Positions 924 to 27,456 of a stretch of DNA of 32,949 bases are shown here, one piece after another. The stretch comes from Chitinophagaceae bacterium (GTDB lineage: Bacteria > Bacteroidota > Bacteroidia > Chitinophagales > Chitinophagaceae), in NCBI GenBank assembly GCA_004322425.1, contig SCVJ01000007.1, forward strand, positions 1-32,949. Direction: 5' to 3'. The position numbers and the translations under genes were made by a program. A model generated the notes under the pieces. It was given only the letters and a program-made list of their open reading frames with translations. It did not search any database and was not told where the DNA came from. Numbering within the stretch: the first letter of the stretch is position 1; each line of letters opens with the position of its first letter.

Positions 924-1649
924 TTATATAAAAATTGAAGTCGCGAGTGTTGCTGATTCAAGAGTGCCAACATCCAAAAATTTATCTCCGCTATGGTCGT
1001 ATCCAAGAATAGTATGGCTGGACGCAAGTTTCAGATAAACATCGGTTAGTGAAAATTTTCCATTAAATCCATTTTTTCGAATCAGTTCAAAAATTTCATA
1101 TTCGAAAACAGCAACACAGCTGTACGCCTTTGTTGAAAGATTAGAATGTGAAAGCGAAAGTTTTGTTTCGTCAGTCTTGCTATTTTTCCAACCACAAAGC
1201 CGATTATTTTCATCAAATAAAAAATTTCTAGAAGTAACTCTGTTTGTTACGCCCAAGGAAATAAGTGGTTGATGTTGTTGATGAAAAGCCAGCAGCTCGT
1301 TTATTTTAAGGTCCGTGAGAATGTCAACATTACAAGTTATTAGTCGTTCGGAAGGGGTAAAAAATTTCTGTGCATTCAATAATCCACCACCAGTTTCCAA
1401 AAGGGAATCCGTTTCATTACTTATTGTAATTGTTGCTCCCCAACCTTTATTTTTTTGGATTGCTGTAATTATGTGATCGGCAAAATGATGAACGTTAACA
1501 ATAATTTCTGTAATCCCGAATTGCTGTAGGTATTCTATATTTCTTTGTAAAAGTGATTTCCCATTTATCAATGCCAATGCTTTAGGATGCTTGTCTGTCC
1601 ATGGTTTGAAACGAGTTCCCAATCCGGCTGAAAAAAGTAATGCTTTCAT
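924..1649 (-). CDS. murU: MurU-like sugar-1-phosphate nucleotidyltransferase
   Basis: A 241-residue nucleotidyltransferase. The N-terminus has the nucleotide-binding signature GLGTRFKPWTDKHPKAL (residues 9-25), then NVHHFADHI, the metal-site stretch CNVDILTDL, and the C-terminal FLDVGTLESA. This short form without a left-handed beta-helix matches MurU (N-acetylmuramate alpha-1-phosphate uridylyltransferase) and small mannose-1-phosphate guanylyltransferases. The NVHH motif and the partner gene favour MurU: its ATG overlaps the stop of the upstream AmgK-like kinase by one base (TAATG), so translation is probably coupled. In Pseudomonas, AmgK phosphorylates MurNAc at C1 and MurU makes UDP-MurNAc, bypassing de novo synthesis. 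The sugar specificity is inferred; a guanylyltransferase is the main alternative. Confidence 0.8.
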   Translation of the reverse strand: MKALLFSAGLGTRFKPWTDKHPKALALINGKSLLQRNIEYLQQFGITEIIVNVHHFADHIITAIQKNKGWGATITISNETDSLLETGGGLLNAQKFFTPSERLITCNVDILTDLKINELLAFHQQHQPLISLGVTNRVTSRNFLFDENNRLCGWKNSKTDETKLSLSHSNLSTKAYSCVAVFEYEIFELIRKNGFNGKFSLTDVYLKLASSHTILGYDHSGDKFLDVGTLESATLATSIFI

Positions 1650-3106
1650 TATTCAATCCCCTTTTTTTCTAAGATGTTTTGTTCGCGGTGATGTAAAATA
1701 ATTTTCACGTTAAATTTATTTCTCAAATGTCGGGCTAGTGCATCGGCAGCATAAACGCTTCGGTGTTGGCCACCTGTGCACCCAAAATTGATTGATAAAT
1801 TTTCAAAATTTCTATTTAAGTATTCTTCAACAGTAATATCAACAGTATCAAAAACACTATTTAAAAATGAAATCATTTTTGTTTGTTGCTCTAAAAAAGA
1901 TTGTACAGATTTATCACGTCCGGTTAATACTTTAAATTCTTCCAATCTGCCAGGATTTAAAATGCCTCGGCAATCAAAAACAAATCCTCCACCATTTCCA
2001 GAGTTGTCTGTCGGGATTCCGTTTTTGTAAGAAAAACTAGAGATATTAATTATCAATGGAGTTTGATCTGTAGCTATTGGGGGTGAAAATTGTAGCATCG
2101 TTTCATCTGAAGTACAAATAGCTAAAACTTTTTGAAATTCGGGAATTTCAATATTCAAATCATTTTGGTTGAGAAATTCATTAAGATTTTTTAATGCTGT
2201 GGGAATACTCGTCAAAAAGTGTGCTTTTCGTTCAAACAAACCACGGAATCCGTATGCTCCAAGAACTTGCAAAAGCCGAATTAGAACAAATCCTTTGTAT
2301 TGGTTTCTAAAAGTTGTTCTATCTAATTTTTTACTTATTTGTAACTCTAAAGCATTCATGTAATCCACCAATAAATTTTCCTTCCATTCATTGCTTAAGT
2401 TGGCTTTGGCCTGCCACAATAAACTGGCAACATCGTATTGGGGCGCCCCTTTCATACCTCCTTGATAATCGATAAAGTGAATGGAGTTATCTTTTTGAAC
2501 CATAATATTCCGACTTTGAAAATCGCGGAACATAAAAAAACGATAATCTGTTTTCGATAGAAATTGGCTGAGTAATTCGAAATCATCTATCAATTTTTGT
2601 TTATCGTAAGGTTTGCGTAATGCGTCTAAAAAATAATATTTAAAATAAAGTAAATCCGCCATGATGGCCTGTTTGCCAAATTCTTGATTTGTAAGGCAAC
2701 GTGTGTAATCCAATTCTTTATCTCCGTTTACTTGAAGTTTGGCAAGTTCTTCTAAACTTTTTTTGAAAAGCGCATAAATGTTAGAAGTTGCTTCTTCTTT
2801 TTCTAGAAAATAGAGGAGGGAGTTGTCACCAAAATCTTCCTGTAAATAAAACAATCCATCGCTACTTACTTTATGAATAGTGGCCACTGGAAAATTTTGG
2901 GCTTTAAATTTTTTTGAAAAATAAATGAAAGCCTCGTTTTCTTTACTATTCGCACCATATGTGCCAATAAGTGTAGTGCCGTCTGATTGATGTACTCGAA
3001 AGTAGCGTCGCTCACTGCCAGACTGGGGAAGCACTTCAACCAACTTGGGCTTTATTCCTTTCCACGATTCATAAAGTTCGGATATTGCCTGTAACGATTT
3101 TTGCAT
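1649..3106 (-). CDS. AmgK-like amino-sugar kinase fused to a RapZ C-terminal domain
   Basis: A 485-residue two-domain protein. Residues 1 to about 315 are an aminoglycoside-phosphotransferase-type kinase: nucleotide-loop region SGSERRYFRV, catalytic loop FRDFQSRNIM (Asp195, Asn200) and metal-binding IDYQGG (Asp213), as in AmgK, which phosphorylates MurNAc/GlcNAc at the anomeric carbon. Residues about 350-485 are a RapZ (YvcJ) C-terminal domain: ISSFSYKNGIP, VFDCRGILNPG, LTGRDKSV and the signature GCTGGQHRSVYAADALA (from 442). The RapZ P-loop ATPase domain is absent. In E. coli this C-terminal domain binds glucosamine-6-phosphate and the adapter controls GlmS. The ATG at 3106 is preferred over one 39 bases upstream, because a -7 element lies at 3111-3118 and the extra residues look unlike the family. 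The stop overlaps the murU-like start. Confidence 0.85.
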   Translation of the reverse strand: MQKSLQAISELYESWKGIKPKLVEVLPQSGSERRYFRVHQSDGTTLIGTYGANSKENEAFIYFSKKFKAQNFPVATIHKVSSDGLFYLQEDFGDNSLLYFLEKEEATSNIYALFKKSLEELAKLQVNGDKELDYTRCLTNQEFGKQAIMADLLYFKYYFLDALRKPYDKQKLIDDFELLSQFLSKTDYRFFMFRDFQSRNIMVQKDNSIHFIDYQGGMKGAPQYDVASLLWQAKANLSNEWKENLLVDYMNALELQISKKLDRTTFRNQYKGFVLIRLLQVLGAYGFRGLFERKAHFLTSIPTALKNLNEFLNQNDLNIEIPEFQKVLAICTSDETMLQFSPPIATDQTPLIINISSFSYKNGIPTDNSGNGGGFVFDCRGILNPGRLEEFKVLTGRDKSVQSFLEQQTKMISFLNSVFDTVDITVEEYLNRNFENLSINFGCTGGQHRSVYAADALARHLRNKFNVKIILHHREQNILEKKGIE

Positions 3107-3198: not shown

Positions 3199-6100
3199 AT
3201 GGGAACTAAGCCGAAAAATAAGATAAGAATTGTAACAGCCGCTTCTTTGTTCGATGGGCACGATGCGGCAATAAATATCATGCGCAGAATTTTGCAGGCA
3301 AAAGGAGCCGAAATTATTCACTTAGGCCATAACCGCAGCGTTCATGAAATTGTTGAAACAGCCATCGAAGAAGATGTGCAAGGAATCGCCATTACAAGCT
3401 ATCAGGGTGGGCATCTGGAATTTTTTAAATACATGAAAGATTTGTTGGATGAAAATGGTTGTAGTCAGATAAAAATATTTGGCGGCGGAGGTGGAACTAT
3501 TTTACCTAATGAGATTGAAGAATTACATCAATATGGAATTGCCAAAATATTTTCTCCCGATGATGGAAGAAAAATGGGATTGGAGGGAATGATTGAAGAA
3601 GTAATTCGTCAGTGCGATGTTCAGCTAAACGGAAATCCCAACTTTGCAACTAAGCTAAAACTTGATGAAGTAAGAGACATTCGAAAAATTGCCCGACAAA
3701 TTACGAATGTAGAAAATGGAATACCAATTGGTGATAGTAGCAAAAAGAAAGATGAAAAATATATTCCAGTTTTAGGAATAACTGGAACCGGTGGTGCGGG
3801 AAAATCATCAGTTACCGATGAGCTTGTGCGCAGATTTTTGAATAATTTTTTAGATAAAACAATTGCAGTTATTTCTGTTGATCCGTCCAAGAAAAAAACA
3901 GGGGGAGCATTATTGGGCGATAGAATAAGAATGAATTCTATTTCAAATCCAAGAGCCTACATGCGTTCACTGGCTACACGAGAGGATAACACAGCGTTGA
4001 GTGGCGCAGTGCAACAAGCCATTGATGTTTGTAAGGCGGAAAAATTTGATTTCATTATTTTGGAAAGTGCTGGAGTTGGGCAAAGCGATGCGTCAATTCT
4101 TGATTATTGCGACATCAGCATGTATGTAATGACTCCTGAATATGGGGCTGCAACACAGTTGGAAAAAATAAACATGCTAGATTTTGCCGATTTGATTTGT
4201 ATTAACAAATTCGACAAAGCCGGTTCATTGGATGCCATTGCTGATGTAAGGAAGCAATACAAACGTAATCATCAATTATTTACAGCCAAAGATCACGAGC
4301 TTCCAATTATTGGAACAATGGCAAGTAAGTTCAATGACGATGGCGTTAATAATCTATTTGCATTGCTGCTAAATAAAATCGAAGCAAAAACAAAAATTAA
4401 TTTTGGAGAATATAGTTTTTCCGAAACTGCAAAAATTTTACAAGCTATTATTCCTTCTGGTCGAGTTCGTTATTTAAGTGAAATATCGGAGAACAATCGC
4501 AACTACGATCAACTAGTAAAAGATCAAGCCAGCATTGCTTCTAAAGTATACCAATTACAAGGAAGTTTGGAAGTATTGACTGGAAGTTTAAATGACTCTT
4601 CTTTAAAAATAATAAAAGAGCAACTAAGTTTTTACTTGGAGCAGCTAACTCCTATTAGTCGAAAATTGATAAGCAACTGGGAAAAAAAGAAAAAAGAATA
4701 TCAAAAAGATTTTTATGAATTTTCTGTTCGTGATAAAGTAATAAAACAAGAAATGTTTACTAAAAGTTTATCCGGACTTCGCATTCCAAAAATTGTACTA
4801 CCAAAATATTCAGACTGGGGCGATCTTTTAAGATGGCAAGCACAAGAGAACGTACCGGGGCATTTTCCATTTACGGCAGGTGTGTTTCCATTGAAACGAG
4901 AAGGAGAGGATCCAACAAGGATGTTTGCCGGAGAAGGTACACCGGAAAGAACCAATAAAAGATTTCATTATGTAAGCTTTGATCAGCCTGCAAAGCGCCT
5001 GTCTACAGCGTTTGACAGTGTAACTTTGTATGGTGAAGATCCCGCTTATCGACCAGATATTTATGGAAAGGTTGGCAATAGTGGTGTAAGTATTGCAACA
5101 GTTGATGATGCTAAAAAATTATACAGCGGTTTCGATTTGTGCGATTCCAAGACAAGTGTGTCGATGACAATTAATGGACCAGCTCCTATTCTTCTTGCAT
5201 TTTTTATGAATGCCGCTATTGATCAACAATGCGAAAAAAAGATTAAAGAGTTAGGAATAGATTCAACGGTTGAAAAAATTAAAAATTCAAAATTCAAAAA
5301 ACAAAATTCTCCAGTATACAGTAATTCATCAGCACACCAAAAATTACCGGAAGGGAACAATGGATTGGGATTGCAATTATTGGGACTAAGTGGAGAAGAA
5401 ATTTTATCAGAATCCGATTACGCAATATGCAAGAAAGATGCGTTACAGCAAGTTCGGGGAACAGTACAATCTGATATTCTAAAAGAAGATCAAGCTCAAA
5501 ATACTTGTATTTTTTCTACAGAATTTGCCTTAAAGTTAATGGGCGATGTACAAGAATATTTCATTCATAATAAAGTAAAAAATTTTTATAGCGTCAGTAT
5601 CAGTGGTTATCATATTGCTGAAGCCGGCGCCAATCCTATCTCACAGCTAGCCTTTACTTTATCAAATGGATTTACGTACGTTGAATATTATTTGAGTCGT
5701 GGTATGCTCATTGATGATTTTGCCCCCAACCTTTCTTTCTTTTTCAGCAATGGAATGGATCCGGAATACACCGTTATTGGAAGAGTAGCAAGAAGAATTT
5801 GGGCCAAAGCAATGAAGTACAAGTATAAAGCAAACAAGCGAAGCCAAATGTTGAAATATCATATTCAAACATCAGGAAGAAGTTTGCATGCTCAAGAAAT
5901 TGATTTCAATGACATACGAACAACCTTACAAGCATTGTATGCTATTTACGACAACTGTAATTCCTTACACACGAATGCCTATGATGAAGCCATAACAACA
6001 CCTACTGAAGAAAGTGTAAGAAGGGCAATGGCTATTCAATTAATCATCAACAGAGAATTGGGAACCGCCAAAACAGAAAATTTTATTCAAGGAAGTTTTG

Positions 6101-6555
6101 CAACAGAAGAACTAACTGATTTGGTGGAAGAGGCCGTGCTTACTGAGTTTGACCGAATCACAGAAAGGGGCGGTGTTTTAGGTGCCATGGAAAGAATGTA
6201 TCAGCGAAATAAGATTCAGGAAGAAAGTTTATTTTATGAGCAACAAAAGCATACTGGCGAATTACCACTAATTGGCGTTAATACATTTTTTAATAAAAAA
6301 GGTAGTCCCACTGTTGTTCCCAGCGAAGTGATTCGAAGCACTAACGAAGAAAAAGAACAGCAAATTAATAATTTGCAAAAATTTTGGAAACGCAATGAAA
6401 ATATAGCTGCTGAAAAAATTGCAAAATTGAAACAAGTTGCTATCAACAATGAAAATATTTTTGAGGAATTGATGGAGTCAGTCAAGTATTGTTCGCTTGG
6501 TCAAATTACTCACGCTTTGTACGAAGTAGGTGGCCAATATCGGAGAAGCATGTAA
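3199..6555 (+). CDS. icmF: Fused adenosylcobalamin-dependent isobutyryl-CoA mutase IcmF
   Basis: An 1118-residue protein that interconverts branched and linear acyl-CoAs (isobutyryl/n-butyryl type) using coenzyme B12. Domains in order: B12-binding domain, residues 1-140, with [14 protein letters not shown] (His21 as lower axial ligand), SYQGG and the GGGGGT loop; MeaB-like G-protein chaperone, about 185-400, with P-loop [12 protein letters not shown] (193-204), [26 protein letters not shown] and NKFD (336-339); helical linker, about 405-535; mutase TIM barrel, about 540-1118, with [21 protein letters not shown]. The last motif is the IcmF form and differs from methylmalonyl-CoA mutase. The built-in GTPase gates cofactor loading. 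The exact substrate (isobutyryl, isovaleryl or pivalyl) cannot be settled by eye. Its first gene partner downstream, 32 bases away, is a cell-wall amidase with no evident metabolic link. Confidence 0.93.
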
Positions 6556-6587: not shown

Positions 6588-7397
6588 ATGAAATATTTTT
6601 TGGCGCTATCAATAATTGTAATAGGATTGTATGCTTGTGCTCCCAAACCTTATTCAGACACCAATAAAAGCTATAAAAAACAAGTAAAAAATTATGGTAA
6701 ACAATTGCATCGGTTTCCGTTACAAGACTCAGCAGGATTGATTTATAGCAAACAATTTGTGGGCACGACAAATCTTTCTATGCGTCGCCCCAATTTTGTT
6801 GTTATTCATCACACAGCACAAAATAGTTGCGAGCAAACTTTAAAAACATTCACATTGCCACGTACGGCAGTAAGCTCACATTATGTTATTTGTCGAGATG
6901 GATCTGTGTATCACATGCTCAACGATTTGTTACGAGCGCATCATGCGGGAGTTAGCAAATGGGGCAATGCAACAGATTTGAATTCGAGTAGTATCGGTAT
7001 TGAAATTGACAATAATGGAGGTGAACCATTTGCGGAACAACAGATGAATAGTTTGGTGCAATTATTGGATCGATTGAAAAAAGCATACAACATTCCTACT
7101 GCCAATTTTGTTGGACACGCAGATGTGGCTCCAGGAAGGAAAGTTGATCCCAGTCGACATTTTTCATGGGAGTTGCTTGCCACCAAAGGGTTTGGATATT
7201 GGTATGATACAACACGTGTGGAAGTGCCAACCGATTTTAACGCCATTCAAGCACTTCGAATAATAGGGTATAATACAACGAATCTTTCCAACGCCATTCA
7301 GTCATTCAAAATTCATTTTATACCGCAAGACACAACAAGAGTCATCTTAGATGCGGATAAAAAAATTCTTTATGACTTAGCTACGAAATATCAATAA
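6588..7397 (+). CDS. AmpD-type N-acetylmuramoyl-L-alanine amidase, lipoprotein
   Basis: A 269-residue Amidase_2/PGRP-fold enzyme that cuts the MurNAc-L-Ala bond of peptidoglycan or muropeptides. The lipoprotein signal MKYFLALSIIVIGLYAC places the acylated cysteine at residue 17, so it should be membrane-anchored on the periplasmic side. Zinc-site motifs are intact: VVIHHTAQ (His74/75), RAHHAG, GHADVAPGRKVDP (His177, Lys185, Asp187), matching the His-His-Asp ligands and catalytic Lys of AmpD. About 70 residues follow the catalytic domain. It follows icmF by 32 bases on the same strand and is probably cotranscribed. With the AmgK/MurU-like pair 3.5 kb away it suggests a local cell-wall recycling theme: this enzyme could release the sugar moiety that the kinase uses. 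That link is inference. Confidence 0.88.
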   Translation: MKYFLALSIIVIGLYACAPKPYSDTNKSYKKQVKNYGKQLHRFPLQDSAGLIYSKQFVGTTNLSMRRPNFVVIHHTAQNSCEQTLKTFTLPRTAVSSHYVICRDGSVYHMLNDLLRAHHAGVSKWGNATDLNSSSIGIEIDNNGGEPFAEQQMNSLVQLLDRLKKAYNIPTANFVGHADVAPGRKVDPSRHFSWELLATKGFGYWYDTTRVEVPTDFNAIQALRIIGYNTTNLSNAIQSFKIHFIPQDTTRVILDADKKILYDLATKYQ

Positions 7398-8676: not shown

Positions 8677-8706
8677 TTGTAATTCAAATAATTTCCGCCA
8701 ACTTTG
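8677..8706 (+). promoter_or_regulatory. Promoter of the mreBCD-mrdA-rodA operon
   Basis: A TTG at 8677-8679 is followed after 19 bases by CAACTTTG at 8699-8706, which matches the Bacteroidota pattern TTG-N19-TAnnTTTG in all but one position. The -7 element ends 24 bases before the mreB ATG. Confidence 0.5.
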
Positions 8707-8730
8707 CTTCCATTAATTACAATCCATCAC

Positions 8731-9756
8731 ATGGGACTTTTTAACTGGTTTACACAAGAAATAGCTATCGACTTAGGTACAGCGAATACCCTCATTATTC
8801 ATAATGATGAAATAGTGGTTAATGAACCATCAATCATTGCGCTTAATCGAAACAATCCAAAAGAGGTTTTGGCAATTGGTAAAAGAGCATTGATGATGCA
8901 TGAAAAAACGCATGAAAGTATTCGTACAGTTCGTCCGTTGCGGGATGGAGTAATTGCCGATTTTAATGCTGCCGAATTAATGATTCGCGAATTAATAAAA
9001 TTGGTATATCCCAAAAGACCTTTGTTTCCTCCCAGTTGGAGAATGATGATTTGTATTCCTTCTTCCATTACAGAAGTAGAAAAAAGAGCAGTACGCGATA
9101 GTGCCGAACAAGCCGGTGCTCGAGAAGTATATTTAATTCATGAACCAATGGCTGCTGCACTTGGAATTGGAATTGATGTAGAAGAACCAGTTGGAAATAT
9201 GATTATTGATATTGGTGGTGGAACTACAGGTATTTCTGTAATTGCATTGGCAGGAATTGTTTGCGATCAAAGTATTCGAATTGCAGGCGATGAATTTACC
9301 GCCGATATTATGGAAGCACTACGCCGCTATCATAGTTTATTGATTGGTGAAAGAACGGCCGAGCAAATAAAAATTCAAGTTGGGTCAGCACTTAAAGACT
9401 TAGATAATCCACCCGAAGATATTCCCGTATATGGACGCGATTTGGTAACAGGTATTCCTAAGCAAATTTTTGTTAGCTATCAGGAAATAGCGGAAGCGCT
9501 GGACAAAAGTGTTTTCAAAATTGAAGAAGCTATTTTAAAAGCATTGGAGCAAACTCCGCCCGAGTTAGCAGCCGATATTTATCGTCGTGGTTTGTATATT
9601 ACTGGAGGTGGCGCTTTACTTCGTGGTCTGGACAAACGATTAAGTCAAAAAATAAAATTACCAGTGCATATTGCCGACGACCCACTTAAAAGTGTTGTAA
9701 GAGGTACGGGCATTGCATTAAAAAATTATGACAGATTTCCGTTTGTTATGCGCTAA
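8731..9756 (+). CDS. mreB: Rod shape-determining protein MreB (bacterial actin)
   Basis: A 341-residue actin-fold ATPase that polymerises under the inner membrane and directs the elongasome. Motifs: phosphate 1 IAIDLGTANTLI near the N-terminus, MICIPSSITEVEKRAV, phosphate 2 IDIGGGTTGISVIAL, and the adenosine motif ITGGGALLRGLD. The N-terminal MGLFNWF is an amphipathic membrane-binding stretch as in other MreB proteins; that and the promoter at 8677-8706 decide the ATG at 8731 over an in-frame TTG/ATG upstream. It is the first gene of the classical operon mreB-mreC-mreD-mrdA-rodA, all on the plus strand. Length equals the family norm. Confidence 0.97.
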   Translation: MGLFNWFTQEIAIDLGTANTLIIHNDEIVVNEPSIIALNRNNPKEVLAIGKRALMMHEKTHESIRTVRPLRDGVIADFNAAELMIRELIKLVYPKRPLFPPSWRMMICIPSSITEVEKRAVRDSAEQAGAREVYLIHEPMAAALGIGIDVEEPVGNMIIDIGGGTTGISVIALAGIVCDQSIRIAGDEFTADIMEALRRYHSLLIGERTAEQIKIQVGSALKDLDNPPEDIPVYGRDLVTGIPKQIFVSYQEIAEALDKSVFKIEEAILKALEQTPPELAADIYRRGLYITGGGALLRGLDKRLSQKIKLPVHIADDPLKSVVRGTGIALKNYDRFPFVMR

Positions 9757-9843
9757 GTAATTTGAAAGACCGAATAATTTTTTTAAAAAAGTTCAAATAT
9801 TATTTCTACCTCGTATCTTGGACATTGAATTCTCTTTCATTTC

Positions 9844-10722
9844 ATGCGTAATATATTTTTGTTTCTTCGTCGGTATTCCACATTTTTTATTTTTCTTGTA
9901 TTACAAGTAATTGCATTAGTTATGTTGTTTAGATACAATAACTATCAACGTGCAATTTTTTTAGGAAAAGCAACTGAGATAACTGGTTTTTTCAATTCAA
10001 AATATAATAAAGCAGAAGATTTTTTTCATTTAAGAAATGAAAATATTAGGGTTCATCAAATGAATGACTCGTTGCGAAATCTATTGTATTCTAATTTTAT
10101 AATTCCCGACTCAGACGCTACCATTGTTGTTGATACAATTAAATATGATACAACCGGTAAGGTGCGCCGCTATATTAGCAGAGCAGCACAGGTGGTTAAT
10201 AATTCTGTAAATGAAGAAAAAAATTATATTCAATTAAACCGAGGTTCACTTCAGGGTATTGCAGATAATATGTCGGTCATTAATTCAGATGGAACAGTTG
10301 TAGGCGTGGTTGTAAATGTGAGTGATAATTTTAGCCAGGTGATGAGTTTGTTGCACGTACAAAGCAGGGTAAATGCAATGTTGAAAAAGAGTAGAAACAA
10401 TGGTAGGGTTGAATGGGATGGGAAGCATCCTTTTTTTCTTACCGTAAAAGATATTCCAAAAAGTGATAATGTTACGCTTGGTGATTCAGTGGTAACCGGA
10501 CTGTATTCGTATAATTTTCCACCGGGTTTATTAATAGGGACTGTGGCAGAAATCATCAATGAAAAGAGTACAAATTTTTATAGTTTAAAAATAAGGACCA
10601 GTACAAATTTTCAAAATTTGCAACAGGTTTTTGTGATTGAAAATTTACAAAGAAGCGAGCAAGTTGAATTAAATAAAGCCACACATAAAAAAATTGATGA
10701 AATAAATAAACGAAAAAATTGA
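9844..10722 (+). CDS. mreC: Rod shape-determining protein MreC
   Basis: A 292-residue bitopic membrane protein: a short basic N-terminus, one transmembrane helix (about residues 12-30, YSTFFIFLVLQVIALVMLF), a periplasmic coiled-coil region (about 45-80, rich in Asn/Arg/Glu) and two small beta domains. Visible family motifs include RAAQVVNNSVNEEKNYIQLN and NRGSLQGIADNMSVI, the conserved N-x-G-x-x-G-I turn of MreC. It links MreB to PBP2 and activates it. It sits 87 bases after mreB; its stop overlaps the mreD start by four bases. Confidence 0.93.
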   Translation: MRNIFLFLRRYSTFFIFLVLQVIALVMLFRYNNYQRAIFLGKATEITGFFNSKYNKAEDFFHLRNENIRVHQMNDSLRNLLYSNFIIPDSDATIVVDTIKYDTTGKVRRYISRAAQVVNNSVNEEKNYIQLNRGSLQGIADNMSVINSDGTVVGVVVNVSDNFSQVMSLLHVQSRVNAMLKKSRNNGRVEWDGKHPFFLTVKDIPKSDNVTLGDSVVTGLYSYNFPPGLLIGTVAEIINEKSTNFYSLKIRTSTNFQNLQQVFVIENLQRSEQVELNKATHKKIDEINKRKN

Positions 10723-11252
10723 ACAACCTATTCTTAAATAGTATTCGGATGGTGCTTTTTCTTGGGCTACAAATTTATGTACTCAACAATGTCCCACCGT
10801 TGCACCAATTCATATCACCTATTATTTATTATTTATTCTTATTATGGTTACCTTTTTCTGTTTCTAGATTGGGCTTGCTTTTTCTGGGTTTTTTATTGGG
10901 GCTATCTATAGATTATTTTTTAGTAACGCCAGGGCTAAATACGGCAGTTTGTTTAGTTATCGCATACGTTCGTCCTTTTTTGATAAGTGTTTTAATTCCG
11001 CACGATAAAGCTGAGTTTAATTTTCGTGAACCTTCAGCTGTTGCAATGGGATGGGTTCCTTATATAACTTATGTGATGCTACTTTCATTTTTATTTCATG
11101 GCTACATTTCTTTCTTGGAATGGCTTCAGTGGGGCGGTTTTTTTGATTTTATTTTAAAAACAATTAGCGCTACTTTGATTAGCACCCTACTAGCAATAAC
11201 CAGCGAGGTGCTTTTTCCCCGAAAAGGAAAACTAAGATCCAGTGGACGTTAA
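10719..11252 (+). CDS. mreD: Rod shape-determining protein MreD
   Basis: A 177-residue polytopic membrane protein with five or six hydrophobic helices (for example YVLNNVPPLHQFISPIIYYL and LPFSVSRLGLLFLGFLLGLS). The conserved FLLGLSIDYF segment is typical of Bacteroidota MreD. I choose the TTG at 10719, which overlaps the mreC stop as TTGA; the next in-frame ATG (10749) would remove the first ten residues, which look like the usual N-terminus of this family. It is part of the elongasome and modulates the MreC-PBP2 interaction. Confidence 0.88.
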   Translation: MNNLFLNSIRMVLFLGLQIYVLNNVPPLHQFISPIIYYLFLLWLPFSVSRLGLLFLGFLLGLSIDYFLVTPGLNTAVCLVIAYVRPFLISVLIPHDKAEFNFREPSAVAMGWVPYITYVMLLSFLFHGYISFLEWLQWGGFFDFILKTISATLISTLLAITSEVLFPRKGKLRSSGR

Positions 11253-11281
11253 AAAAATAGCCAAATAGAATTTTTACCTTG

Positions 11282-11289
11282 TAGCTTTG
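11282..11289 (+). promoter_or_regulatory. -7 element upstream of mrdA
   Basis: TAGCTTTG, an exact TAnnTTTG match, lies 35 bases before the mrdA ATG in the 72-base mreD-mrdA gap. It could be an internal operon promoter. No -33 TTG is seen at 19 bases. Confidence 0.35.
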
Positions 11290-11324
11290 AAACTCAAAAA
11301 TTATCCCTTCATCTTCAAGCAACT

Positions 11325-13388
11325 ATGTCTGCGTTTAATCAATCAAGGAGCTATATTATTAAGTTAGTTTTTCTTATTTCCTTTTTTATTGTATTGGTGC
11401 AACTTTTTTATATGCAAGTTGTTTCTAATAAGTACGAAAAATTAGCACACGATCTTTCGGTTTATCCTAAAATTATTTATCCCGAACGGGGAATTATTTA
11501 CGATAGAAATGGTAAAGCCATTTTAAACAATTCTATCATGTATGACTTGATGGTAACTCCTGCCGAAGTGAAGAATATTGATACGCTTGAATTTTGCAAC
11601 ATCATGGAAATGGATACGGCAGAATTTAAAAATCGAATAAACGATGCCATTTTTAAAAATTCAAAAGTTCGTCCTTCTGTTTTTGAAGATTTATTACCCA
11701 CTTATTTACAGGCACGGTTTGAAGAAAATAGCTGGAAATTTCCTGGATTTGTTTTGGTTCAACGACCCATTCGAACCTATCCTTTTAATGCGGCTGCGCA
11801 CATTCTCGGCTATATTGGAGAAGCGGATACGGCGCAAATTAGACGAACAGGAAATTTTTACCGAATGGGAGATTATGTTGGGAAAAATGGAATAGAAGCT
11901 TCCTATGAAAATATTTTGATGGGACAAAGAGGTGTACAATATTTGATAAGAGATAATAAAAATAGATTAGTGGGTGCTTATCAAAAAGGAACATTGGATA
12001 CTGTGGCAATTGCCGGTAGAAGTTTACGTACTTATATTGATATAGAAGTTCAACAATTAGCGGAAAAATTACTCTCGAATAAAGTGGGAGCTATCGTTGC
12101 AATTGAACCAAAAACTGGCGGCATTATTGCCATGGCATCAGGCCCCAATTTTAATCCCAATGATTTAACCGGACCAGATAAAAGTAAAAATTTTGCAAAA
12201 TTGCAATTGGATGTTTCCGCACCCATGTTGAACAGAGCAATTAAAGGACAGTATCCACCTGGTTCAACTATAAAAATATTGGGCGCCATTACTGCACTGG
12301 ATGAAGGAATCATAACTGAAAAATTCGGATACAATTGTAATGGGAGATATTTTTCTTGTGGCATTGGCAAGCCGGCTTGTTCGCATCATAATATTGGACA
12401 TGCTGCCAACTTACGAATGGCTATTGCCAATTCTTGCAATTCATATTTTACTCATTTATATCGAATGACGGTTGATAATCCAAAATATAAAAATGTAAAA
12501 GAAGGATATACCGTTTGGCAGAATTATATGAATAGTTTTGGGTTGGGTGTTAAATTAGGCATTGACTTGCCCAGCGAAGACAAAGGAAATATTCCAGACA
12601 CGGTTGTTTATAATAAAGATTATAGAAGTAGATGGAACTCCTGCACAAATCTTACATTGGGTATTGGGCAAGATAAAATGCTAGCTACTCCATTACAATT
12701 GGCAAATGCTATGTGCATTATTGCTAATAAAGGATTTTATATTACACCTCACTTTGTTTCAAAAATTGATGGTGAAACTGCTGCCGATACCGTATTGAAT
12801 CGTTATAGAACTAAGCATGAGATTTCTGCGAAAATTTCAGATTCATTGTACGAAATTGTTATTGGCGGCATGCAGGATGTTGTTGAAAGAGGAACTGCAG
12901 GCAATGCAAGAATTCCTGGCATTACTGTTTGTGGTAAAACAGGAACTGCAGAGAATAAAAAAGTAATTGATGGAAAGGTGATACAACTTGCCGATCATTC
13001 TTTTTTTGTTTGTTTTGCTCCAAGAGAAAATCCAAAAATTGCAATTGCCATTGTGGTTGAAAATAGTGGCTTTGGAAATACATGGGCTGCTCCCATTGCT
13101 AAGATGATAATGGAAAAATATCTGAATGATTCGTTAAGTACAGAAAGTCAAACAAAATGGTTGGATTATATCAGCAGTAAAAATCTATTACCTTCTTATT
13201 TAAAGCGCCTGCAAACCAAAACAGATTCTGTTCGGGCTTTTGATTGGTTCAAACTAACAAAAGACAGTAGTTATATTAAAAAATATAAACGTACTAATAA
13301 AATAAGTGATAAGGGTTCTAAAAATAAAAAAGAACGCAAAGTGCAAACTAGTTCTACAGCTGCATTGTTGCCAAAAAAACATTTCTAA
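11325..13388 (+). CDS. mrdA: Penicillin-binding protein 2, elongasome transpeptidase
   Basis: A 687-residue class B penicillin-binding protein that crosslinks peptidoglycan during side-wall growth with RodA. It has a short cytoplasmic tail, one transmembrane helix (about residues 11-31), a pedestal domain starting with YPERGIIYDRNG, and a transpeptidase domain with all three active-site motifs: S-x-x-K in PPGSTIK (Ser314, Lys317), S-x-N in ANSCNS (Ser370, Asn372) and KTG in CGKTGTAEN (538-540). The C-terminus has a long basic, lysine-rich tail (about residues 650-687) that is probably disordered. It is the fourth gene of the rod-shape operon and the likely target of mecillinam-type beta-lactams. 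Confidence 0.96.
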   Translation: MSAFNQSRSYIIKLVFLISFFIVLVQLFYMQVVSNKYEKLAHDLSVYPKIIYPERGIIYDRNGKAILNNSIMYDLMVTPAEVKNIDTLEFCNIMEMDTAEFKNRINDAIFKNSKVRPSVFEDLLPTYLQARFEENSWKFPGFVLVQRPIRTYPFNAAAHILGYIGEADTAQIRRTGNFYRMGDYVGKNGIEASYENILMGQRGVQYLIRDNKNRLVGAYQKGTLDTVAIAGRSLRTYIDIEVQQLAEKLLSNKVGAIVAIEPKTGGIIAMASGPNFNPNDLTGPDKSKNFAKLQLDVSAPMLNRAIKGQYPPGSTIKILGAITALDEGIITEKFGYNCNGRYFSCGIGKPACSHHNIGHAANLRMAIANSCNSYFTHLYRMTVDNPKYKNVKEGYTVWQNYMNSFGLGVKLGIDLPSEDKGNIPDTVVYNKDYRSRWNSCTNLTLGIGQDKMLATPLQLANAMCIIANKGFYITPHFVSKIDGETAADTVLNRYRTKHEISAKISDSLYEIVIGGMQDVVERGTAGNARIPGITVCGKTGTAENKKVIDGKVIQLADHSFFVCFAPRENPKIAIAIVVENSGFGNTWAAPIAKMIMEKYLNDSLSTESQTKWLDYISSKNLLPSYLKRLQTKTDSVRAFDWFKLTKDSSYIKKYKRTNKISDKGSKNKKERKVQTSSTAALLPKKHF

Positions 13389-13408
13389 TTTGAAAAAAGT
13401 AGAGATTA

Positions 13409-14734
13409 ATGAGTTATAGAAAACAGGAAATAACAAAAGGCATTGATTGGCTATTGCTTTGGTTGTGGCTTCTGCTGTGTTCGATTGGCATACTTGCCAT
13501 ATTTGCTGTAACGTACAAGGACGGGGATTCAGTTATTCAAGCTTTGGTTGGATTTAAAACCGATTACAGTAAACAGTTTTATTTTTTCGGTCTTTCTTTT
13601 ATCATTGGTGTTTTTATTTTATTAACCGACAGTAAATTTTTTACAGCTACAGCTACTATTTGGTATTTACTGGGAATAATAATGTTGCTTTTGGTTTTTC
13701 CGTTTGGCTCGAATGTAAGAGGTACTGAATCTATAATACGAATTGGTGGCTTTCAATTTCAACCGGCAGAGTTTTGTAAAATCTGTGTTTGTTTAGCGTT
13801 GGCAAAATATCTTTCTCAACCACAAAGAGATTTGGGTAGAACTAAAACGCAATTAGTTGCGGCAAGTATTGTTTTACTGCCAGCAATTATTAGCGTCATG
13901 CAAAGTGAAACCGGATTGGCGTTAGTATATTTTTCATTTTTTATTGTGATGTATCGCGAAGGGTTGTCATCTATGATATTAATTGTTGGTTTTTCTGTAG
14001 CAGTAATGGTTGTGGCTACTTTATTGATTGAAAAAAGCACACTTTTCTTTTTTCTCACTTCCCTAGCTCTTGTAACAATATATTTTTTAAGACGTCAAGT
14101 AAAAAAGAAAAAAGCAGTACTCTTTTCTGTTTTATTTATTTGGCTTTTATGTGTCAGTATTCAACGATTTGCGGTTCCTTTCTTTTTTAAGCAAGTACTA
14201 AAGCCGCATCAAGTAGAGAGAATCTTCAGCACAATTGGCAAAGATGTACCTGTTGAATATAGTTTAGACGGAGGCATAGTCGCTAAAAACAAGGATGTAC
14301 ACTACAATGTGAAGCAATCCAAAATTGCAATTGGTAGTGGTGGTTTTTTCGGTAAGGGGTTATTAAAAGGAACGCAAACTCGATACGATTTTGTTCCGGA
14401 GCAACGAACCGATTTTATTTTTTGCGCAATTGGGGAAGGCTTTGGTTTTATGGGCAGCTTTGTATTAATTGGTTTATATGTTCTTCTTCTTTTCCGAATC
14501 ATTTTGTTGGCAGAGCGGCAAAGAAGCACGTTCAGTAGAAGTTATGCCTATGGCGTTGCTGCTGTTTTCTTTTTTCATATAATTATTAATATAACCATGA
14601 CGGTAGGGCTTGCGCCAGTTATTGGTATCCCACTTCCATTTCTTAGTTACGGAGGAACTTCGTTGCTCACGAATTCTATTTTACTTTTTATTTTAGCACG
14701 ATTAGATGCTGATCGGCAAATGGGGATGAGATAA
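13409..14734 (+). CDS. rodA: Peptidoglycan polymerase RodA (SEDS family)
   Basis: A 441-residue SEDS glycosyltransferase that polymerises lipid II in partnership with PBP2. About ten transmembrane helices are evident. Conserved parts: IRIGGFQFQPAEFCKI (normally GGFxxQPSEFxK), the extracellular loop VKQSKIAIGSGGFFGKGLLK, FVPEQRTDFIFCAIGEG with the catalytic aspartate (Asp335), and GIPLPFLSYGGTSLL near the C-terminus. The loop between the middle helices is longer than in E. coli RodA and carries a basic RRQVKKKK stretch, giving 441 rather than about 370 residues, as usual in Bacteroidota. It starts 20 bases after the mrdA stop. Confidence 0.95.
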   Translation: MSYRKQEITKGIDWLLLWLWLLLCSIGILAIFAVTYKDGDSVIQALVGFKTDYSKQFYFFGLSFIIGVFILLTDSKFFTATATIWYLLGIIMLLLVFPFGSNVRGTESIIRIGGFQFQPAEFCKICVCLALAKYLSQPQRDLGRTKTQLVAASIVLLPAIISVMQSETGLALVYFSFFIVMYREGLSSMILIVGFSVAVMVVATLLIEKSTLFFFLTSLALVTIYFLRRQVKKKKAVLFSVLFIWLLCVSIQRFAVPFFFKQVLKPHQVERIFSTIGKDVPVEYSLDGGIVAKNKDVHYNVKQSKIAIGSGGFFGKGLLKGTQTRYDFVPEQRTDFIFCAIGEGFGFMGSFVLIGLYVLLLFRIILLAERQRSTFSRSYAYGVAAVFFFHIIINITMTVGLAPVIGIPLPFLSYGGTSLLTNSILLFILARLDADRQMGMR

Positions 14735-25252: not shown

Positions 25253-25260
25253 TATGTTTG
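25253..25260 (+). promoter_or_regulatory. -7 element upstream of the clan-CD-like gene
   Basis: TATGTTTG, an exact TAnnTTTG match, ends 12 bases before the ATG at 25273; AAAGGAG just before the ATG resembles a ribosome binding site, but its spacing is short. No TTG is found at -33. Confidence 0.35.
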
Positions 25261-25272
25261 TTCAAAGGAGTT

Positions 25273-27456
25273 ATGATTTCAAAATTAAAAATTTTATCAT
25301 TTTGGTTTTTCTGTTCTAGCCTTTCCGGCTGGGCGCAACCTGGTTCTGGAAAAGAGCTTCTTCCTGATTCTAGAACGGCACTATTTCATGATTTTGTAAA
25401 TAAGGAGCAACTAAATGCTTTGCAATCGGATGGTAAAGAAGACGATTTAATGAACGTATCACATAATCAGGAAATAAATTTTCTGGTTACACGAGCCATT
25501 ATTCAGCAAGTGGATGAGCTACAATATCGGATTGAAAAAGATTCGACAATGGGCATTCAGACAAAAGTTCGATATATCCGTGGTATTGAAAGATTGTTAA
25601 AAGATTTAAACGCCAATTGGAAACTCAACCGTTTTGATATCGCCCAATTTCCCGTAATGGTTGTGGCTTATACAAAATGTATGGAAATGGATCATGCAGG
25701 AATAAGTATCGAAGCAGAAATAGAGCAACTTTCATATGAGGTTGCAAAACCCTTGGTTAATTGTACTGCTTTTGATACCAATGTTGGTTTTAAAGCGAGT
25801 AAAAATTTACTGGTAAAAAAATATTGTCATCTGTTTCCACAACAAATTTTATTTACACTCAATCAATTTCCCGATGTTCCGTTTGCAGACAGTCTTATTA
25901 AAATTGCCGCCAATAATTCACCCAAACAGTTATACGATTATGCTGCCGCCAATAATAAATTAGGAGCCATCATTCGAAAAATTGATGATCCGCTGATAAA
26001 AGCAGTTTCCAAAATGGCTATGAGTAGTGGGAATGGTCAGCTATATTTTCCTTTTTTGGATAAAGTGGTAAATGGTTCTTTAACAATTGCTACCATTGAT
26101 TCTGCACGAAGTGATTCACTGAGTTATTTTCAATTGCTCGTAAAAACGCATATTGAATATGCCGGAAGATTAATCGAAAAGGATACAGCAAAAGGGTTTA
26201 ATGATTTGCTAAAAATGATGGAACTAAAAGCTCGAGATGTTTATATTACTACCATCAATGGATTACATAATGAAGAAAACGAATTGCGTTTCAAAGTTAT
26301 TCAACCCTTAAATGCACAGGAGCTTTACTACTTAGCGGTTTTAACTGATGGAATTATTTATACTTCCAGTTTTGTAAATGGAGTTTATCCGTTGATGATG
26401 CAAAAAGTAAATCAACGTGGCGACTCGTTGCTACAATTAGTAAATTTTGATCGGTATCGGAAATTTCTAAAAATGGTGGCAGGGTACAATACACTGAATA
26501 ATTTCCTGAGTTCATTTTCAAATACGAATGATGCCAATAGTTTAATGCGTGCCTTTGTGGGTAACCTGGAAAAATCAGCGGGACTGGAAGATGCCGTTGA
26601 TGTTGCCGATTCATACGCTAGTATTATGGAATCAAATCCTCTGCTGGCGAAGAAAATGCTGGAGCATATTAATTTGAATTACAATCGAAACGTAAAACAG
26701 AATAATAAAAAAGGAATTGTACTCTATAATCTTTTACAAAAATTATTACTATCAGCCGATACATCAAGACAAGTTGATCTTGCAGTTGAGTTGGGTATTC
26801 CACCGGTGTATAACGTGCCATTTAAAAGTCTTGTAAACGACAGTGGACAAATTGTGATGCAAGTATTTTTTTATGGCGATAAAGACGGACAAAATATTTT
26901 TCAAGGGTTTCAAAAAATGTTTCAGCCCGATAAATGGAAAATCACCAATGAAAAAAATTGGATTTGTATTAATTCTATAAAAGGGAAACCTATTTTCATT
27001 TATGCGAATCGTCCATTGTCCGAAGAAACTGGCGAAGATGAAATGGCGCAAGAATCTTTAGACTCATTTTTTGTTGCCAATAAATTACATCCCACGGTGG
27101 TTATTCATCGGGGCCATAGTTATTATGCACCGTATACAATTGCTCAATTACAACCCAGTACAAAAATTGTTTTTATGGGTAGTTGCGGTGGCTATCATTT
27201 AATTCACGATATTCTAAAAACGGCTCCTGATGCACATATCATAGCTTCAAAGCAAATTGGGAAAACGGCTATTAATCGACCTTTCTTTGAATTGCTGTTA
27301 GAAAAATTACGAATAGGGGAAGATGTTCAATGGATAAGTTTCTGGAAAGAGTTTCAGCAAAAAGTAAAAGTAGAAGGATTTGAAGATTACATTCCACCCC
27401 ATAAAAATTTAGGTGCCATCTTAATCAAAGCATTTGCAATTGACTCTGAAAAATGA
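25273..27456 (+). CDS. Exported protein with a C-terminal clan-CD-like (caspase/gingipain-fold) domain
   Basis: A 727-residue protein I cannot assign to a named family. The signal peptide MISKLKILSFWFFCSSLSGWAQ directs export. Residues about 25-520 are mostly helical with no recognised motif. The last 200 residues look like a caspase-type fold: a strand MQVFFYGDKDG, later the hydrophobic strand VVIHRGHSYY with His615, then KIVFMGSCGGYHL with Cys638, followed by HIIASKQIGKTAINRPFFELL. A hydrophobic strand ending in G-H-S and a second ending in S-C-G is the arrangement of the catalytic dyad in clan CD peptidases (gingipain, caspase, CHAT). Activity is unproven. It is divergent from the PhoB-like gene and 36 bases upstream of an ABC exporter gene. 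Confidence 0.6.
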   Translation: MISKLKILSFWFFCSSLSGWAQPGSGKELLPDSRTALFHDFVNKEQLNALQSDGKEDDLMNVSHNQEINFLVTRAIIQQVDELQYRIEKDSTMGIQTKVRYIRGIERLLKDLNANWKLNRFDIAQFPVMVVAYTKCMEMDHAGISIEAEIEQLSYEVAKPLVNCTAFDTNVGFKASKNLLVKKYCHLFPQQILFTLNQFPDVPFADSLIKIAANNSPKQLYDYAAANNKLGAIIRKIDDPLIKAVSKMAMSSGNGQLYFPFLDKVVNGSLTIATIDSARSDSLSYFQLLVKTHIEYAGRLIEKDTAKGFNDLLKMMELKARDVYITTINGLHNEENELRFKVIQPLNAQELYYLAVLTDGIIYTSSFVNGVYPLMMQKVNQRGDSLLQLVNFDRYRKFLKMVAGYNTLNNFLSSFSNTNDANSLMRAFVGNLEKSAGLEDAVDVADSYASIMESNPLLAKKMLEHINLNYNRNVKQNNKKGIVLYNLLQKLLLSADTSRQVDLAVELGIPPVYNVPFKSLVNDSGQIVMQVFFYGDKDGQNIFQGFQKMFQPDKWKITNEKNWICINSIKGKPIFIYANRPLSEETGEDEMAQESLDSFFVANKLHPTVVIHRGHSYYAPYTIAQLQPSTKIVFMGSCGGYHLIHDILKTAPDAHIIASKQIGKTAINRPFFELLLEKLRIGEDVQWISFWKEFQQKVKVEGFEDYIPPHKNLGAILIKAFAIDSEK

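Follow-up and report, generated by a model that had tools for sequence, protein, structure and literature searches.

A close described counterpart of the locus studied here is the anabolic recycling route of Pseudomonas, in which AnmK, MupP, AmgK and MurU act (PMC5371407). AmgK is described as an anomeric kinase of MurNAc and GlcNAc whose gene has murU as its neighbour (PMC5371407, PMC13046382). The second relevant system is the C-terminal domain of Escherichia coli RapZ, where a pocket formed by H190, T248, G249, H252 and R253 was reported to bind malonate or sulphate (PMC5737377). This domain alone binds GlcN6P with a KD of 10 nM, and the anion pocket was proposed by the authors as the binding site (PMC7073468). 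Furthermore, the substitutions H190A, G249W, R253A, C247A and even C247S abolished the action of E. coli RapZ on GlmZ and glmS, and it was suggested that the SH group of C247 may have a catalytic function (PMC9841335).

Elements of both systems meet in a gene of a Chitinophagaceae bacterium (assembly GCA_004322425.1, contig SCVJ01000007.1). The whole stretch of DNA analysed, 32,949 nucleotides long, is referred to as the window. Like AmgK of Pseudomonas and Caulobacter, the gene product has an APH-fold kinase, and a murU-like gene adjoins; it shares a kinase and a uridylyltransferase with the AnmK-MupP-AmgK-MurU route, but here the module includes RapZ-C, the C-terminal domain of RapZ. As far as we have seen, the fusion of kinase and RapZ-C is widespread but uncharacterised in the open-licence literature searched. 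No published description of a kinase-RapZ-C fusion was found there, in line with the preliminary description, made from the sequence, whose author knew of no characterised example.

The fusion gene and its MurU-like neighbour

The features of the locus are collected in Table 1. The open reading frame listing also contains an upstream GTG as an alternative start of the fusion frame, which would give a protein of 498 aa. In Pfam searches, RapZ_C (PF22740) matched residues 352-476 with 115.9 bits (cut-off 27), covering profile positions 2-120 of 121, and APH matched residues 29-249 with 34.7 bits (cut-off 23.2). The domain is complete, as had been claimed, and lies in one chain with the kinase; the GCTGGQHRSV motif is intact, and the MurU-like gene begins within the stop codon of the fusion gene, as expected for the cotranslation that had been proposed. 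Profile searches of the same genome found this one RapZ_C domain in all and two APH-type matches, the fusion gene counted.

Table 1. Features of the kinase-RapZ_C locus in the window
Feature	Position	Strand	Remarks
MurU-like nucleotidyltransferase gene	924..1649	-	241 aa; ORF, Pfam, NCBIfam and profile matches
TAATG	1647..1651	-	Fusion stop shares one base with the MurU-like start
APH/AmgK-like kinase-RapZ_C fusion gene	1649..3106	-	485 aa; ATG at 3106, stop 1651-1649
RapZ C-terminal domain	1679..2053	-	Residues 352-476; Pfam and domain model
GCTGGQHRSV loop (C-x5-R-S)	1754..1783	-	Residues 442-451; equivalent of E. coli C247-S254 and neighbours
Gly386 codon	1949..1951	-	Position of the E. coli pocket residue His190
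GNGGG	1985..1999	-	Residues 370-374; part of an insert that canonical RapZ is without
Kinase domain	2153..3106	-	Residues 1-318; Pfam, 78-row alignment and fold match

The fusion protein was aligned with 26 fused relatives and then with 77, giving 78 rows; these 77 came from 80 relatives kept from a contig-collection scan (L089, L091 and L120 were left out). D195, N200 and D213 of the kinase domain, which from what is known of the APH fold we take to be the catalytic Asp, the Asn and the metal Asp, were invariant in this alignment. Mean pairwise column identity across the 78 fusions was higher in RapZ_C (0.576) than in the kinase (0.447). Among the NCBIfam models, two AmgK models gave the top kinase matches, with 62.1 and 37.1 bits, and this supports the AmgK-like assignment of the preliminary description, although both fall far short of the curated cut-offs of 550 and 500. 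The AmgK models, of 324 and 360 positions, match nothing but the kinase part.

AlphaFold2 modelling of the whole chain with the 78 sequences gave a pLDDT of 95.3 and a pTM of 0.87. The top fold match of the kinase part was 3csv (Z 29.3, 312 residues, 2.8 A), which places it in the APH kinase fold; a stretch of 267 residues of 3csv scored 226 bits against an AmgK model with a cut-off of 500. The N-acetylhexosamine 1-kinase 4ocj was also among the fold matches listed (Z 20.7, 285 residues, 3.5 A). Since the 50 matches listed for the whole chain included kinases, the RapZ-C tail was also folded on its own (pLDDT 94.0), and this model matched the C-terminal domain of E. coli RapZ (5o5s) with Z 19.3 over 123 residues at 1.6 A and 33% identity. 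Both domains are therefore confidently folded in prediction and each matches its own family. NCBIfam RapZ was likewise the top model for the tail, with 102.8 bits for the RapZ equivalog, below its cut-off of 244. The RapZ N-terminal ATPase domain (PF03668) was without a match in the genome of the window, as had been noted for the fusion chain, and was found in 0 of the 57 genomes tested, while six control genomes were positive. The neighbouring cotranslated gene had the two NCBIfam MurU (MurNAc-1-phosphate uridylyltransferase) models as its top matches, with 110.5 and 88.2 bits, but remained under both curated cut-offs (250 and 370).

Based on homology, the kinase domain of the fusion could be a MurNAc/GlcNAc 1-kinase. 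The observation of an AmgK-like kinase and a RapZ-C domain in one chain is confirmed, far beyond chance.

Distribution of the module and its linkage to MurU

RapZ_C was present in 36 of 296 sampled Bacteroidota genomes. It was fused to the kinase in 27 of these carriers, was a separate gene between the kinase and MurU genes in 7, and had neither gene nearby in the remaining 2, where the kinase and MurU are encoded elsewhere. A class sample, which overlaps with the phylum sample, contained RapZ_C in 45 of 396 genomes; the open frame is 467-544 aa long in 41 of these and short (102-156 aa) in the other 4. Two of the short frames belong to split-gene genomes shared with the phylum sample; a third (G601, locus L139) appears split, although a frameshift is possible as the assembly is fragmented, and the fourth (G430, locus L140) runs off its contig. 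The contig-collection scan gave at least 586 relatives, and all 80 that were kept are fusions. By record title these come mostly from Bacteroidales and Chitinophagales; the outlying titles, single MAGs of Calditrichia, Elusimicrobia and Delongbacteria and two of Ignavibacteria, may be misbinned. The architecture, whose survey across the Bacteroidota the preliminary description had proposed, is thus widespread and not singular.

The occurrence of RapZ-C was tightly connected to that of the two enzymes. MurU was found in 36 of 36 RapZ-C genomes and in 0 of 20 non-carriers (E 1e-30), the latter being those of 260 that a results table listed and not a random draw. The kinase profile reached at least 257 bits in 37 of the 296 phylum genomes, namely the 36 carriers and one further genome (G009), and MurU reached at least 189 bits in the same 37. 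G009, where the kinase and MurU genes overlap, was alone among the 296 genomes in having both at carrier level without RapZ-C. A divergent kinase with lower scores (85-144 bits) occurs in family f17, accompanied in most of its genomes by a MurU-like match but not by RapZ_C; the two genes were adjacent in the 3 f17 loci read. Because G009 and f17 have the kinase and MurU without RapZ-C, the domain is not required for the chemistry everywhere. Partial sets were seen in G231 (MurU with 182 bits, no kinase match), in G047, G070 and G078 (weaker MurU-like matches of 110-123 bits, kinase not matched) and in G024 (kinase, no MurU match at E 1e-30).

Gene order agreed with the co-occurrence. MurU adjoins in 28 of the 36 carrier genomes (21 fused and 7 split). 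In the 80 contig loci it adjoins in 51, is not adjoining in 28 and is fused in 1, a triple kinase-RapZ_C-MurU fusion from a Bacteroidaceae record (L091) with an open frame of 773 aa. Of the 28 loci without adjoining MurU, 2 end at a contig edge, and in 4 a MurU-like frame lies at a greater distance or is read from the opposite strand. The fusions, the order of the genes and their joint occurrence show that RapZ-C is part of a kinase-MurU module, and the link to MurU drawn in the preliminary description is thereby strengthened. The same observations could be explained if RapZ-C were merely a scaffold that docks MurU onto the kinase for channeling, and the retention of the kinase-RapZC-MurU order in the 7 split loci as well as the triple fusion would fit such a role. 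Docking would, however, not need the invariant anion-pocket loop described below, and 8 of the 36 carriers have MurU at another place; we find this explanation improbable.

To follow the fused and separate states, we used a kinase tree of 120 rows made by a quick method, in which 41 of 115 inner branches have less than 80% support. Support was 97% for the pairing of the split kinase L039 with a fused row and 93% for a group in which the six split kinases of family f4, on a long stem (2.03), stand with fused rows; the kinases L134 and L135 are scattered on long branches with unsure places. The fewest changes among the fused, separate and absent states on this tree were 5. Split kinases are thus placed among fused ones at two points of the tree, and it seems that fusion preceded splitting and that RapZ-C was retained next to the kinase afterwards. 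Duplicates of the window locus and of L039, L040 and L041 (L001, L032, L014, L027 and L030) were dropped from the counts.

An altered pocket in the RapZ-C domain

We compared the RapZ-C residues of 107 fused and 9 separate kinase-linked domains (116 in total, with two pairs of identical fused rows counted as given) with those of 6 canonical RapZ proteins. In the canonical set, Klebsiella is identical to E. coli over the compared stretch, and two lone plasmid domains and Fusobacterium were left out. In E. coli numbering, C247, T248, G249, G250, H252, R253 and S254, as well as D182 and R184, were invariant in 116 of 116 domains, so that the C-T-G-G-x-H-R-S loop is common to the fusions and E. 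coli RapZ. The position of H190 was instead Gly in all 107 fused and all 9 separate domains; of the 6 canonical proteins, 5 have His there and 1 has Tyr. The full five-residue pocket is thus not retained. In addition, 116 of 116 domains carry an insert with GGG, five residues long in 115 domains and four in 1, which is absent from 6 of 6 canonical proteins; in the fusion of the window it comes after the conserved D367 and lies near Gly386 in sequence.

In the reading of the preliminary description, the domain would be a GlcN6P sensor like that of E. coli, through which the de novo supply of amino sugars would gate the kinase. The binding of GlcN6P by the isolated E. coli domain, the close fold match to that domain and the conservation of T248, G249, H252 and R253 out of the five residues of the pocket agree with this proposal. 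Against it stand the GGG-bearing insert and the glycine at position 190, where the H190A exchange costs E. coli RapZ its action on GlmZ and glmS (PMC9841335). GlcN6P as the ligand has become doubtful, and we consider this reading unlikely. Since the glycine and the insert are found in 116 of 116 domains, the ligand may differ from GlcN6P. Judged from these residues, the RapZ-C pocket is probably a phosphate site that has been kept but altered, with a different sugar specificity.

An RNA-binding role was also considered, in which RapZ-C would act as a post-transcriptional regulator like RapZ and the kinase part would be the metabolic sensor. RefSeq labels two of the fusions, from Parabacteroides distasonis and Bacteroides finegoldii, as "RNase adapter RapZ", and 103 of 107 fusions have K or R at the K170 position, both of which could speak for such a role. 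On the other hand, all 107 fusions have F or W at the R238 position, where 6 of 6 canonical proteins have a basic residue, and no Rfam family reached the gathering score within the window. Most fusions also depart from E. coli at K194, R211 and K251; as canonical RapZ is variable at these positions too, the changes carry no weight against RNA binding. With the RapZ N-terminal domain missing and the R238 position aromatic, we hold an RNA-adapter function to be highly improbable. Bacteroidota RefSeq entries named RNase adapter RapZ can therefore be something else, and the name is misleading in the two entries seen.

The reading that we prefer, with a probability of about 0.46, is that the fusion is a MurNAc/GlcNAc 1-kinase of an AmgK-MurU type salvage pathway, whose RapZ-C domain binds a sugar phosphate other than GlcN6P, probably in a regulatory role. 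From homology and genomic context, the N-terminal domain would act as an anomeric kinase on free MurNAc, perhaps also on GlcNAc, and the cotranslated MurU-like enzyme would convert the 1-phosphate to UDP-MurNAc. By analogy with the E. coli structures, the C-T-G-G-x-H-R-S loop would bind an amino-sugar phosphate through its phosphate group. We propose a bulkier sugar phosphate of the pathway as the ligand, e.g., MurNAc-6-phosphate or MurNAc-1-phosphate, in view of the glycine at the His190 position and the inserted glycine loop. Binding of the ligand might then adjust the activity of the kinase (or of MurU), in cis where the domains are fused and as a partner subunit where they are split. A sugar-sensing domain of RapZ would in this way be tied to cell wall salvage in a phylum where the RapZ N-terminal domain was found in none of the 57 genomes tested, and RapZ-C may accordingly be less a part of an RNA adapter than a module of wider use for amino-sugar phosphates. 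The genomic data are also compatible with a catalytic or a scaffold role of the domain.

MurNAc recycling genes and a possible catalytic loop

The salvage reading was further compared with the occurrence of AnmK and MurQ. AnmK was detected in 26 of 36 carriers (in G216 only partially, at a contig end) and MurQ in 17 of 36 (15 above and 2 just below the cut-off), whereas both were present in 20 of 20 listed non-carriers. Among the 36 carriers, 14 had both genes, 12 AnmK only, 3 MurQ only and 7 neither. This pattern fits an anabolic MurNAc salvage able to replace the MurQ route, as is the case in Pseudomonas (PMC5371407), and the 12 carriers with AnmK and without MurQ speak for the salvage reading. 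Against it are the scores of the kinase and of the MurU-like protein far under the curated cut-offs, the 10 carriers without AnmK, 7 of them also without MurQ, the presence of the kinase and MurU without RapZ-C in G009 and f17, and the 28 contig loci and 8 genomes without adjoining MurU. AnmK was absent from all 28 genomes that have the kinase and MurU without RapZ_C (G009 and 27 of f17), or from 29 if G024 is added; G231, with AnmK and MurU but no kinase match, was excluded from this count.

These data also bear on a catalytic function. RapZ-C could be a Cys-loop phosphatase (C-x5-R-S) that takes the 6-phosphate off MurNAc-6-phosphate, in which case the one chain would correspond to Pseudomonas MupP plus AmgK. 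In the AlphaFold2 model, the loop with C443 and R449 connects a strand (436-443) to a helix (449-465). A strand followed by a C-x5-R-S loop and a helix is the layout of Cys-phosphatase loops. The loop cysteine is invariant (116 of 116), and a catalytic SH group has been suggested for E. coli RapZ, where even the exchange of C247 to serine is inactivating (PMC9841335). The gene content points in the same direction: in the 12 carriers with AnmK and without MurQ, MurNAc-6P needs another outlet, AnmK is common in carriers and absent from the genomes with kinase and MurU but without RapZ-C, and split RapZ-C stays beside the kinase in 7 genomes.

Several observations nevertheless argue against a phosphatase. 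The carriers without AnmK, above all the 7 with neither AnmK nor MurQ, speak against a general role of this kind, and the AnmK contrast is confounded by descent, since f17, with 27 of the 28 genomes, is a single family. Canonical RapZ has the cysteine just as consistently (6 of 6), and the parts of the RapZ literature consulted do not mention a phosphatase activity there. Finally, the fold matches of RapZ-C were led by RapZ and not by phosphatases: the dual-specificity phosphatase 6d67 was a weak match to the RapZ-C model (Z 5.0, 86 residues, 3.3 A). A phosphofructokinase was also matched (Z 6.3, 95 residues, 4.0 A), in a range in which chance arrangements are met.

Taken together, we consider a phosphatase function unlikely, but retain it because of the C-x5-R-S loop layout and the unexplained inactivity of E. 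coli C247S; gene co-occurrence leaves it as a rival, given the 10 carriers without AnmK and the single-family origin of the f17 contrast. Also rather doubtful is its extended form, in which RapZ-C would be a MurNAc-6-phosphate phosphatase, the fusion would be bifunctional (MurNAc-6P to MurNAc to MurNAc-1P), and canonical RapZ would have descended from, or would still retain, a sugar-phosphate phosphatase. If the loop were catalytic, the fusion would supply the phosphatase step for AnmK genomes without MurQ and would offer a direct test of the unexplained C247 requirement in E. coli RapZ. Among the kept relatives, a Tannerella sp. MAG (L074) carries the fusion followed by MurU, and AmgK and MurU of T. 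forsythia have served in E. coli as the positive control for MurNAc-probe labelling (PMC13041923).

Kinase-linked and lone RapZ C-terminal domains

Among the aligned kinase-linked RapZ C-terminal (RapZ-C) domains, the second cysteine, C379, was nearly invariant, and the adjoining D378 was invariant. In the kinase-MurU pairs of the three genomes examined from f17 (a family with a divergent kinase), which lack RapZ-C, the MurU-like frame was longer, at 317 to 345 aa.

Lone RapZ-C-like proteins on plasmids are described here from two records. The search matched 81 plasmid records in all, 26 of them from Streptomyces. Both proteins are too short to leave room for the RapZ N-terminal domain. They carry the name RNase adapter RapZ, as do two Bacteroidota kinase-RapZ-C fusions.

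Features of the window and of related loci
Feature	Location	Strand	Basis or source
Codon of C379, FDCR motif	window 1970-1972	-	alignment of kinase-linked RapZ-C domains
Fused mutase, placed divergently	window 3199-6555	+	domain matches
N-acetylmuramoyl-L-alanine amidase	window 6588-7397	+	Amidase_2 match
Cell-shape cluster	window 8704-14734	+	assigned by eye
732 aa protein	window 25258-27456	+	
Lone RapZ-C-like protein, 160 aa	L131:1501-1983		Streptomyces linear plasmid
Lone RapZ-C-like protein, 180 aa	L132:1447-1989		Planobispora linear plasmid
Overlapping kinase-MurU pair without RapZ-C	L133:2084-3801		genome G009
Divergent kinase-MurU pair without RapZ-C	L136, L137, L138		three f17 genomes

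Other genes of the window

A Pfam search at E 0.001 returned no matches for the 732 aa protein. The mutase gene encodes a single chain with B12-binding, MeaB GTPase and methylmalonyl-CoA mutase domains. The peptidoglycan-related amidase gene lies about 3.5 kb from the fusion, outside its operon, and the cell-shape cluster comprises what we take to be mreB, mreC, mreD, penicillin-binding protein 2 and rodA.
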